In this document: one piece after another, positions 33,371-37,258 of the stretch | Numbering within the stretch: the first letter of the stretch is position 1 | Layout: each line of letters starts with the position of its first letter | Source: Actinomycetota bacterium | GTDB taxonomy: Bacteria > Actinomycetota > Acidimicrobiia > IMCC26256 > JAENVU01 | Assembly (NCBI GenBank): GCA_016870395.1 | Contig: VGBT01000024.1 | Span: 1-37,287, forward strand | Length of the DNA stretch: 37,287 bases | Reading direction: 5' to 3' | Made by a program: the position numbers and the translations under genes | Notes under the pieces: model-generated | Seen by the model: only the letters and a program-made list of their open reading frames with translations | Database searches by the model: none | What the model was told of the DNA's origin: nothing

Positions 33371-35584
33371 GTGCGTCGAAGGTCGGGGGTGCTCGTCGCC
33401 ACCCTCGCGCTGGTGGGTGCCGCTCCTGTCGCCGTCTCCTCGGCCGCCGCGGCCGACGGTCAGGGCTCCTGGCAGGTGACCACCCAGCCGTCACCGGTTC
33501 GGGCCGCCCATGCCGCGCTGCTCAACAACGGCAAGGTCCTGCTCGTGGCGGGGTCGGGCAACAGTCGCGGAAGTTTCGACGCGGGCTCGTTCCGCACGAG
33601 CATCTGGGATCCCGCGACCGACACGTTCCAGACGGTCGGCACACCGTGGGACGCGTTCTGCTCCGGCCACGCGTTCCTGCCTGACGGCCGGCTTCTCGTG
33701 GCGGGAGGCAGCTCCGCGTATCCCGGACCCGCGACCAACAACTCCAACGCAGGTGTGAAGGACGCGTACCTGTTCGACCCGGCGACGAGCTCCTATCAGC
33801 GCGCCGCGGACCAGTCGCACGCTCGGTGGTACCCGACGCTCACCGAGCTCGGTGACGGCCGCATTTTCACCGTTGGCGGTCTCGACGAGGTCGGCTTGCT
33901 TACAAAGCACTGGCAGATCTTCGATGGCGACACCGGGAGGTGGACCGCGCCCACGCTGCCGCCCGACCAGTTCGCGATGATGCCGATGTACCCCGCGCTG
34001 CACCTCATGCGCGACGGGCGGCTCTTCTACTCGGGGGTCAACACGTTCGGCGGGAGCACCGCCGTCGCGCCGGCAGGGATTTGGGACGTCACCACCAACC
34101 GCTACCAGGTCGTTCCCGGCCTCACCGACGACGGGTTGCGCGACCAGGGCATGAGCGTGCTGCTGCCGCCGGCCCAGGACCAGAAGGTGATGGTCGTCGG
34201 GGGCGGGCACCAGGACTATCCGGCTCCCGCGGTGGCGTCGACGGCGATCGTCGACCTCACGCAGCCGAACCCGCAGTTCACCCCCGGCCCACCGATCGAC
34301 GCCGGGAAGATGTACGTGAGCGCCACGATCCTGCCCGACAAGACGGTGCTGCAGACCGGCGGTGCGTCCACCACGATCCACAACGGGACCAACCCGGTCT
34401 TCAGCACCCAGATCTACAACCCGAAGACCTCGACGTGGCGCAAGGTCGGCTCGCACAGCGTGCCCCGCGTCTACCACTCCTCCGCGCTGCTGCTCCCCGA
34501 TGGCCGGGTCGCGACTTTCGGTGGCAACCCGGTCGACAGCTTCGAGATGCGCATCGAGGTCTACACGCCGCCCTACCTCCAGACGGGCACCGCGCGGCCG
34601 ACGATCGCGAGCGCTTCGACGGAGATCCACTACGGCGCGACGTACTCGGTGGCCAGCACGCAGGCCGCGCCGATCGCCTCCGCGGTGCTCGTGCTGCCGG
34701 CCGCGGTCACCCACTCGAGCGACCCGAACCAGCGCCTGGTGGACCTCCCGTTCACCGCCACCGCCGGTGGGGTGTCGGTCTCGGTCCCGAACGAGCCGAA
34801 CCTGGCCCCGCCGGGCTGGTACATGATGTACCTCGTCGACGCGAACGGGGTTCCGTCCGTCGCGCACTGGGTGCACCTCACCGAAGGCTCGTACCCGTCC
34901 GGCGGCTACACCCTCGAGGGCTGGGGTGGGATGCACCCCTTCGCCACCGACGGCGTGGCCGCTCCGGCCGTCACCCAGGGTCCGTACTGGTACGGCTGGG
35001 ACATCGCGAGGGGCGCCGCGCTCCAGGCCGATCATCGCGGCGGCTACATCGCCGACGGCTGGGGTGGGGTGCACCCCTTCGCGACCGGTGGCGTGTCGCT
35101 GCCGTCTCGGGTGAAGGGCAATGCCTACTGGCCCGGCTGGGACATCGTTCGGGGGGTGGCGATGCTGCCGAACGGGACGGGCGGCTACGTCCTCGACGGC
35201 TGGGGCGGGCTGCATCCGTTCCGGGTGGGCGACGGCGCGGCACCTCCGGCGGTGCACGGCGCGCCGTACTGGAGCGGTTGGGACGTGGCCCGCGGCATCG
35301 CGATCCTGCCCGACGGCACGGGCGGATACGTGGTCGACGCTCTCGGCGCCGTACACCCCTTCAGCCTGGGCCACGGGCCGATGCCGCCGCCGGTGCCGCC
35401 GCCCTACCGGCCGTGGGCTGCCCCGGTGAGGGGGATCGCGGTGCAACAGAACGGCAGTGGCGGGATGGTTCTCGACGGGTGGGGCGGCAGGCATTCCTTT
35501 CCGATCGGGACCGGCGCACCCGTGTCCCCGTCCGGTGGGGCGAGCTGGGTGGGCTGGAGCATCGCTCGCGGTGTCACCCTCTAA
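33371..35584 (+). CDS. Secreted copper-radical oxidase (galactose/glyoxal oxidase family) with C-terminal repeats
   Basis: A 737-residue exported protein. Start GTG 33371 has GGGAGG seven bases before and gives a proper signal peptide (RRRSGVLVATLALVGAAPVAVSSAAAA); the longer frame from 33236 is rejected. A seven-bladed kelch-like domain (about 35-395) and an early-set domain (about 405-503) match galactose oxidase and glyoxal oxidase. All copper and radical positions seem present: C97 (FCSGHAF) and Y154 (RWYPTL) for the thioether pair, Y368 and H369 (RVYHSSALLLPDGR) and H448 (VTHSSDPNQR). Residues 511-737 hold five repeats, each starting like GGYVLDGWGGLHPF, at 511, 557, 604, 651 and 697. 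It probably oxidises an alcohol or aldehyde and yields hydrogen peroxide; the substrate is unknown. Confidence 0.88.
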   Translation: MRRRSGVLVATLALVGAAPVAVSSAAAADGQGSWQVTTQPSPVRAAHAALLNNGKVLLVAGSGNSRGSFDAGSFRTSIWDPATDTFQTVGTPWDAFCSGHAFLPDGRLLVAGGSSAYPGPATNNSNAGVKDAYLFDPATSSYQRAADQSHARWYPTLTELGDGRIFTVGGLDEVGLLTKHWQIFDGDTGRWTAPTLPPDQFAMMPMYPALHLMRDGRLFYSGVNTFGGSTAVAPAGIWDVTTNRYQVVPGLTDDGLRDQGMSVLLPPAQDQKVMVVGGGHQDYPAPAVASTAIVDLTQPNPQFTPGPPIDAGKMYVSATILPDKTVLQTGGASTTIHNGTNPVFSTQIYNPKTSTWRKVGSHSVPRVYHSSALLLPDGRVATFGGNPVDSFEMRIEVYTPPYLQTGTARPTIASASTEIHYGATYSVASTQAAPIASAVLVLPAAVTHSSDPNQRLVDLPFTATAGGVSVSVPNEPNLAPPGWYMMYLVDANGVPSVAHWVHLTEGSYPSGGYTLEGWGGMHPFATDGVAAPAVTQGPYWYGWDIARGAALQADHRGGYIADGWGGVHPFATGGVSLPSRVKGNAYWPGWDIVRGVAMLPNGTGGYVLDGWGGLHPFRVGDGAAPPAVHGAPYWSGWDVARGIAILPDGTGGYVVDALGAVHPFSLGHGPMPPPVPPPYRPWAAPVRGIAVQQNGSGGMVLDGWGGRHSFPIGTGAPVSPSGGASWVGWSIARGVTL

Positions 35585-35692
35585 GCTCGCTGAAGCGATG
35601 AGTCAGTCGCGGCTAGCCTGAGAGGGCGCGTCACCTGGGGCGTGGTGACCGCGGCGCCGATCGGCGTAGAGCGGACGAGTGGGGGAAGCCCG

Positions 35693-37258
35693 ATGGTCAC
35701 CGCGGTCGAGGACGTCGGGCGCGCCGTTCCCGCGCGCCGGTTGGTTGCGATCGCGGTTGCCGGCGCGCTGGCCGGGGCCGGCCTCCTGCACCTGGCGTTC
35801 GCGCCGGAGCACCTGGCGGAGCAGACCAGCCACGGCGTGTTCTTCCTCACGGTCGCCTGGGTGCAGCTGGCTGCCGCGGCGCTGATCGCGTTCGGACGCG
35901 CCCCGCGCTGGTCCCTGTTCGGGATCGCGGCGCTGAACGTCGCGGTGATCGTCGTGTGGGTCGTGTCGCGCACGGCGGGCATCGACGGCACGGTCGAGCA
36001 GGTCGGCTTCGCCGACGCGCTGGCGAGCGCGTTCGAGGTGATCGCGGTCGGCGGGTCCTTGTTGCTCGCGCTCGGCTGGGTCGGCCCGATGGTGAGCGAG
36101 TACGCGATGGGCGCCACGGTGGGGATGTCGCTCGCCGCGGTGATCGCGCTCGTCAGCGCGTCGCTCGTCCCGGCGCTCGGCGGTGGCCACAACCACGCGC
36201 ACGACGAGGCCGGTGGCCACGTCCACGGGGCGGATGCCGCGCACGAGCACTCCGACGCGGCCTCCGACGACGGCCACGCGCATGACGACAGCGCCAGCTC
36301 GACCACAGACGACGGGCACGGCTCCCATGACGACACCGAGGTGGCCGGCGCGACGGCGACCAACGAAAGCCACGGCCATTCGACGACCACCACCACGACG
36401 GCGGCGCACAACGACGACCACACGACGACGACCACCGCGCCCGGTCACGGCCACACCGACCCGGTCACCGGCGACGACTGGGCGACCACGCGCCGCAACG
36501 CGCTGTTCGGCGGCGTGTCACCGCAGCGGCTCGCCGCGGTGCAGGCCGACTCGCGCCAGTTCCTCGAGTCGAACCTCCGCGGCCGCTCCGCGCTGCTGAA
36601 GGGCCTCCCTGAGGCCGACCGCGAGGCCCGCGTCGACGTGTTCGCGCAGTGGCAGAGCGACAACGCGCTGAACGCGGAGCACGGTGACCACTCCGTCGGG
36701 AACCACACCGACGGGCCGGCCGCATGGATCCCGATGGGCCCGGCCGAGACGATCGCGCTCCAGGCCGAGCTGAAGGCCGCGGCCACCAACATCGCGAAGT
36801 ACCCGACCGCGGCCGACGCGATGAAGGGCGGCTACTTCCAGGTGACCCCGTGGGTGGCCGGGATCGGCGCTCACTACCTCAACGCGAGCTACATCGGGAA
36901 GTTCGAGCCCGAGCACCCGTCGATCCTGCTGTACAACGGCAACAAGCCGACGTCGGTGATCGTCGGCGTCTCGCATGCGGTGCTGAGCGCCACCGAGCCC
37001 GACGGCTTCTCCGGACCGAACGACAGCTGGCACCGGCACCCGTCGCTCTGCCTCCTCGGGGCGTTCGTCGTCGGCACCGACGCGACGCCCAAGGACATGT
37101 GCGACATGGTGGGCGCGACGAAGGGCAGCGGCTTCGGCACGGGTTCGAACTTCTACATGATGCACCTGTGGCAGGTCCCGGGCTGGGAGTCGTCGTGGGG
37201 CCTGTTCAGCAGCGAGAGCCCGGCGCTGAACTTCGCCACCACCGACGTCGGCACGTAG
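35693..37258 (+). CDS. Membrane protein with His-rich linker and unknown C-terminal domain
   Basis: A 521-residue protein I do not recognise as a whole. Four or five hydrophobic segments (about 18-36, 48-68, 75-93, 112-132, 138-160) are followed by a His/Asp/Thr-rich stretch (166-254) holding 17 histidines, many as HxH, that could bind metal. The C-terminal domain (about 262-521) contains GAHYLNASYIGKFEPEHP, LLYNGNKPTSVIVGVSHAVL, DSWHRHPSLCLLGAFVV and FYMMHLWQVPGWESSW, with well-spaced His and Cys. I would place it outside the cell, next to the linker. Start ATG 35693 has GGGGGA upstream; an ORF start at 35642 is less likely. It follows the copper-radical oxidase gene by 108 bases, so copper handling is a reasonable but untested idea. 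Confidence 0.8.
   Translation: MVTAVEDVGRAVPARRLVAIAVAGALAGAGLLHLAFAPEHLAEQTSHGVFFLTVAWVQLAAAALIAFGRAPRWSLFGIAALNVAVIVVWVVSRTAGIDGTVEQVGFADALASAFEVIAVGGSLLLALGWVGPMVSEYAMGATVGMSLAAVIALVSASLVPALGGGHNHAHDEAGGHVHGADAAHEHSDAASDDGHAHDDSASSTTDDGHGSHDDTEVAGATATNESHGHSTTTTTTAAHNDDHTTTTTAPGHGHTDPVTGDDWATTRRNALFGGVSPQRLAAVQADSRQFLESNLRGRSALLKGLPEADREARVDVFAQWQSDNALNAEHGDHSVGNHTDGPAAWIPMGPAETIALQAELKAAATNIAKYPTAADAMKGGYFQVTPWVAGIGAHYLNASYIGKFEPEHPSILLYNGNKPTSVIVGVSHAVLSATEPDGFSGPNDSWHRHPSLCLLGAFVVGTDATPKDMCDMVGATKGSGFGTGSNFYMMHLWQVPGWESSWGLFSSESPALNFATTDVGT

Follow-up and report, generated by a model that had tools for sequence, protein, structure and literature searches.

A GlxA-like copper radical oxidase with a C-terminal repeat module and a neighboring histidine-rich membrane protein in an uncultured Acidimicrobiia genome

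The window analyzed here (37,287 nucleotides, the entire contig VGBT01000024.1 of assembly GCA_016870395.1, a 97-contig, 2.98 Mb genome that is 98.9% complete) ends in two genes, one encoding a secreted copper radical oxidase with five repeats at its C-terminus and the other a histidine-rich membrane protein. The explanation that we favor, and to which as a whole we give somewhat better than an even chance, is that of an AA5 oxidase held at the cell wall with an envelope metalloprotein as its neighbor. The secreted oxidase would process itself with copper and O2 to form a Cys97-Tyr154 cross-link and would then oxidize a primary alcohol or small aldehyde, turning O2 into H2O2; its putative propeller tail would bind a glycan of the cell's own envelope or a polymer of its wall, keeping the enzyme at the surface. 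The histidine-rich protein would combine a membrane domain, a metal-buffering histidine-rich linker and an extracytoplasmic His4/Cys2 domain, and in this genus it may act as a copper supply or copper buffer for the oxidase, a link less secure than the other parts of the explanation. Among bacteria, copper radical oxidases have been studied best in Streptomyces, whose cell surface is shaped by GlxA; if the explanation is right, an envelope-tied oxidase in uncultured lake Acidimicrobiia would be another way to place H2O2-generating chemistry at the surface.

The oxidase and its active site

The oxidase gene starts with a GTG codon at 33371, and its product matches the Pfam families Glyoxal_oxid_N (1.9e-13), Kelch_6 (4.8e-17) and GO-like_E_set (1.2e-25). 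Its top PDB matches are GlxA structures (4unm, 3e-108), followed by fungal galactose oxidase (7e-39). The initial annotation of this DNA had described a complete site for copper and the Cys-Tyr radical, and C97, Y154, Y368, H369 and H448 do occupy those positions when aligned with GlxA. Together with W153, whose equivalent is Ala in the GlxA entry 5lxz, they align with the active-site residues of galactose oxidase and GlxA, and the set C-W-Y-Y-H-H is identical in 21/21 aligned oxidase relatives recovered from the 100 related genomes that we sampled (for the oxidase as well as for the repeat module and the C-terminal domain discussed below). Judged by these alignments, the protein has the residues and fold of an AA5 copper radical oxidase of the galactose oxidase/GlxA type, and it should oxidize small alcohols or aldehydes, with O2 reduced to H2O2.

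GlxA of Streptomyces lividans/coelicolor (4unm) has the same Cys, Trp-Tyr, Tyr-His and His set, the kelch propeller and the early-set domain, but the window's oxidase lacks a segment of ~110 residues that lies between GlxA chain residues 112 and 232, and it has an extra C-terminal repeat module. Further, no cslA/cslZ-like gene was recognized among its visible neighbors, which on reading by eye are genes for an aspartate kinase, an aspartate-semialdehyde dehydrogenase, an S15-type peptidase and the histidine-rich protein. Against the NCBIfam model for GlxA (NF052501) the oxidase scored 476 bits (E 1.4e-142), under the curated cut-off of 800 bits. The missed cut-off and the absent segment led us to reject GlxA in the strict sense; by sequence the oxidase is an AA5 enzyme that resembles GlxA without being a true GlxA. 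Fungal galactose oxidase and the alcohol/aldehyde oxidases (AA5_2) have the same fold and active-site residues at lower similarity, and their extra domain is N-terminal, whereas the repeat module here is C-terminal.

The C-terminal repeat module

Behind the catalytic domain, five units of the GGYxxDGWGGxHPF type begin at oxidase residues 511, 557, 604, 651 and 697, with pairwise identities of 30-57%. They had been reported as five repeats of 46-47 residues; the number stands, as does the length of four units, but the fifth has only 41 residues. The unit profile finds the oxidase repeats at E ~1e-74 (four of these units are in the profile itself) and matches other proteins of the window's genome at E 2e-83 to 9e-67. 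The partners of the module in that genome are Amidase_2 (peptidoglycan amidase), Glucosaminidase, GH5/39-like glycosidase, CAP and FG-GAP proteins, in keeping with the early suggestion of a surface or wall module. Of the 100 related genomes 16 have it, a single genome giving as many as 37 matches; its partners there, read by eye, are proteases, amidases, phosphatase-like proteins and further secreted proteins. Because the module is shared with wall enzymes, and with it presumably their location, we read it as an envelope anchor: most likely it keeps the oxidase tethered to the envelope of the cell, where it would bind the wall.

In nearly all fusions the module is ~200-235 residues long, and this near-constant span fits a closed domain with some five blades. 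The AlphaFold2 (AF2) model of the module is propeller-like (predicted local distance difference test, pLDDT, 67; predicted template modelling score, pTM, 0.73), and in comparisons with solved propellers (VIA, >200 residues) it reached Z 14.3 with Pizza6 and 14.2 with the PknD propeller (1rwl). On this modelling, which is of moderate confidence, a small closed beta-propeller is the most probable fold of the five units. The designed Pizza6 and the extracellular propeller of PknD likewise consist of repeated beta blades of 40-47 residues, but the module has no significant sequence relation to these or any other solved propeller, and it probably has five blades; the only sequence match to a solved structure (E 0.027, to a beta-1,3-glucanase) was not trusted. 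Tachylectin-2 has five blades of ~47 residues and binds N-acetylglucosamine and N-acetylgalactosamine; the module is alike in unit size and number only.

The fusion of oxidase and module was found only in the window's genome (G000) and in two other genomes of the same genus (G001 and G002), and the nearest oxidases of the same family (in G003 and G004), as well as several others, stop directly after the catalytic domain. We found no description of either the fusion or the repeat module in the open-access literature. What is unusual here is the putative envelope module on a GlxA-like oxidase of known enzyme type, and the module offers a ready family for wall-binding tests.

Elsewhere in the window's genome, four secreted proteins with the repeat module are encoded inside ~15 kb (L073, G000:C2:17822-32429), in surroundings that by eye include glycosyltransferase-like genes and parts of a polysaccharide export ATP-binding cassette transporter. 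One genome of the class has many module matches in ~30 kb of one contig (L205, G065:C52:43000-62900).

The histidine-rich protein and its C-terminal domain family

The second protein is most likely an envelope metalloprotein. Its anatomy is as first described, with membrane segments (about five hydrophobic stretches within the first 180 residues), exactly 17 histidines in the linker and a C-terminal domain (C-domain). Its likelier start is the ATG at 35693, preceded by GGGGGAAG. The protein has no Pfam or NCBIfam match and neither a SCO1-SenC nor a PCuAC domain, and a PHROGs search gave no match. Relatives of its transmembrane (TM) domain are present in 42/159 genomes. Two such relatives without the C-domain (L208:4511-5464 and L209:1290-2264) have an extreme histidine-rich tail, with 31-33 His in ~320 residues, and adjoin a cupin-like secreted protein.

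The C-domain family is the less known part of the locus and is widespread among Acidimicrobiia. It is present in 48 of the 100 related genomes, often in several copies, and 80 loci came from a scan of named genomes, almost all of them in Acidimicrobiia or other Actinomycetota bins; about half of the loci share the TM and histidine-rich architecture, and the rest encode short proteins with one or no TM segment. Across 65 aligned rows (the window's protein and 64 relatives) six positions are invariant, His411, His464, His466, His508, Cys470 and Cys487 in the numbering of the window's protein, with Asp461 likewise listed as invariant, and the protein follows the family pattern AH[YFW] ... [WFY]HxH ... 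LC ... C ... MxHxW. The initial annotation had called the domain one of unfamiliar type, and we agree: it has no PDB profile match and no Pfam family, and its members match neither SCO1-SenC nor PCuAC. Structure prediction, which had been proposed as a check on both this domain and the repeats, left the latter at a propeller-like model but gave a confident one for the C-domain (pLDDT 92.8, pTM 0.89); compared with PDB folds it found no match (best Foldseek E 2.7, best VIA Z 3.2), which does not in itself prove a new fold. A domain found in about half of the sampled genomes, confidently modelled and without relatives in Pfam or the PDB would be well worth a first structure determination and the identification of its metal. 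In many genomes (L204:7631-8890; L212, L222-L225, L228, L231, L232) the same kind of TM and histidine-rich parts is followed by a divergent relative (HYxN ... WHxHxxLC ... PMxHVW ... CGPFAALEG), and the superfamily is therefore wider than the aligned set.

Table 1. Features of the oxidase and histidine-rich protein genes (positions in the window)
Feature	Coordinates	Strand	Basis
Oxidase coding sequence, 737 residues; secreted copper radical oxidase with C-terminal repeat module	33371..35584	+	Open reading frame, Pfam, PDB alignment
Signal peptide, residues 1-28 (RRR...AAA-ADG), Sec-like	33371..33454	+	Judged by eye from sequence
Catalytic kelch propeller and GO-like early-set domain, residues 29-502	33455..34876	+	Pfam; GlxA 4unm alignment
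Cys97	33659..33661	+	GlxA alignment, relatives' alignment
Trp153-Tyr154 (GlxA W-Y pair; cross-link tyrosine is Tyr154)	33827..33832	+	GlxA and relatives' alignment
Tyr368-His369, predicted copper ligands	34472..34477	+	GlxA and relatives' alignment
His448, predicted copper ligand within early-set domain	34712..34714	+	GlxA and relatives' alignment
Repeat unit 1, 46 residues	34901..35038	+	Motif and alignment
Repeat unit 2, 47 residues	35039..35179	+	Motif and alignment
Repeat unit 3, 47 residues	35180..35320	+	Motif and alignment
Repeat unit 4, 46 residues	35321..35458	+	Motif and alignment
Repeat unit 5, 41 residues, closing with the strand that opens the next turn	35459..35581	+	Motif and alignment; AF2
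Histidine-rich membrane protein coding sequence, 538 codons; C-terminal metal-site-like domain	35642..37258	+	Open reading frame, hydrophobicity
N-terminal domain with ~5 TM segments, conserved His50 and His57 (H-x6-H)	35729..36190	+	Hydrophobicity; invariant columns
Histidine-rich linker, residues 183-271 (17 His in 89 residues)	36188..36454	+	Sequence count
C-terminal domain, residues 361-538 (~178 residues)	36722..37255	+	Alignment, AF2, PDB/Pfam searches

Relation between the two genes

The initial annotation had also proposed that the pair works as one copper system. The part of this that stands is the adjacency, seen in both genomes of the genus with a visible flank (G000 and G002), on the same strand and with a gap of 57-108 bp; the pair has been kept between the two despite GC contents of 71% and 58% and protein identities of 72% and 58%. 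A functional link between the two proteins nevertheless seems doubtful to us, if still well worth considering. We give an even chance to the alternative that the genes are functionally unrelated, with a wall-anchored oxidase and an independent envelope metalloprotein placed side by side in a conserved syntenic block.

Several points argue for that alternative and against the explanation that we favor. The pair ends a block of seven genes that is syntenic in G002, and its adjacency may be plain synteny. No oxidase was found near the C-domain gene in 74 other loci in which that gene was called (fetched flank up to 10 kb), so that the two stand together at 1/75 loci, the one of the same genus. 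Co-occurrence across genomes, named beforehand as a check on the pairing, failed to appear: within the order it is not beyond chance (11/14 vs 29/44, Fisher p=0.51). The commonest neighbors at 37 C-domain loci are housekeeping genes, mostly those for ClpP/trigger factor, Rieske/Rv3818-like and YchF proteins, and the 25 commonest neighbor families include no copper family. Two further points concern the oxidase itself. The model of its tail is of moderate confidence and comes from two sequences, with the blade number unsettled; and GlxA is reported to turn over glycolaldehyde without significant activity on galactose, its physiological substrate being unclear (PMC4736821), so that the substrate of the window's oxidase is not predictable.

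What speaks against unrelated genes is the short same-strand gap, the retention of the pair across a 13-point difference in GC and at 58-72% identity, and the copper proteins found near TM-only relatives (those without the C-domain), namely multicopper oxidases in G005 and G010 and cupredoxins in G108 and G117. These four cases, from three lineages, compare with ~0.2-0.3 expected by chance among 11 loci (estimated from how many copper genes those genomes have); the pattern was noticed post hoc in few loci, which lessens its weight for the favored explanation, and should be taken as a lead and not as a test. We reject a pairing conserved throughout the order, with no oxidase at the other C-domain loci and no significant co-occurrence.

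In Streptomyces, the copper-loading partners of GlxA are Sco, ECuC and DtpA (a DyP peroxidase); the histidine-rich protein could have an analogous role, though it lacks sequence relation to any known family. SCO1, PCuAC and Dyp_perox were not detected in the window's genome, where the positive controls worked, a point in favor of a shared copper system. SCO1 is over cut-off in 13/58 genomes of the order and missing from most, and its absence here is therefore not diagnostic, a further point against the explanation that we favor. It strikes us as improbable that the histidine-rich protein, as a member of a widespread and so far undescribed family of envelope metalloproteins without relatives among solved structures, has in this genus replaced the Sco/ECuC/DtpA route, either as a dedicated donor of copper to the wall-tethered oxidase or as its dedicated partner.

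Copper may be the metal of the histidine-rich protein. We regard as possible, but not likely, that it handles another metal (zinc or nickel storage) and that its linker is simply a metal sponge: many zinc and nickel proteins have histidine-rich linkers with HxH/HGHxH runs, and copper genes are missing from the commonest C-domain neighbors, but these neighbors include no zinc or nickel transport family either, and TM-only relatives lie near cupredoxin and multicopper oxidase genes. A zinc or nickel transport context, which the initial annotation had named as a refutation, was looked for among the commonest neighbor families of the 37 loci and rejected.

It is less likely again that the repeats serve to bind substrate, directing the oxidase to an external polysaccharide. 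Some fungal AA5 enzymes do have extra binding modules, and the module here is also found on a GH5/39-like glycosidase, proteases and other secreted proteins of differing substrates; but such unrelated substrates argue for a common location rather than a common substrate, and several of the partners act on peptidoglycan, which leaves the envelope anchor as the reading we prefer. That the oxidase should be catalytically inactive is very improbable: no supporting point was found, the six active-site residues are identical in all aligned relatives, and the frame is intact throughout the sequence available for the genus's three species (the G001 contig stops within the gene).

The window's contig ends 29 bp past the histidine-rich gene, which puts the downstream neighbors out of view in this genome. 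In the sister species G002, genes for a response regulator (Response_reg, Trans_reg_C) and a HAMP-HisKA-HATPase sensor kinase lie 3' of the histidine-rich gene on the same strand (contig C18, L081:10595-12618) and begin 60 bp from it, beyond the point at which the window's contig stops. Several of the lake-metagenome bins that encode the histidine-rich/C-domain family (L081, L090, L099, L115, L134) are publicly titled 'Bifidobacterium breve', names that look wrong.

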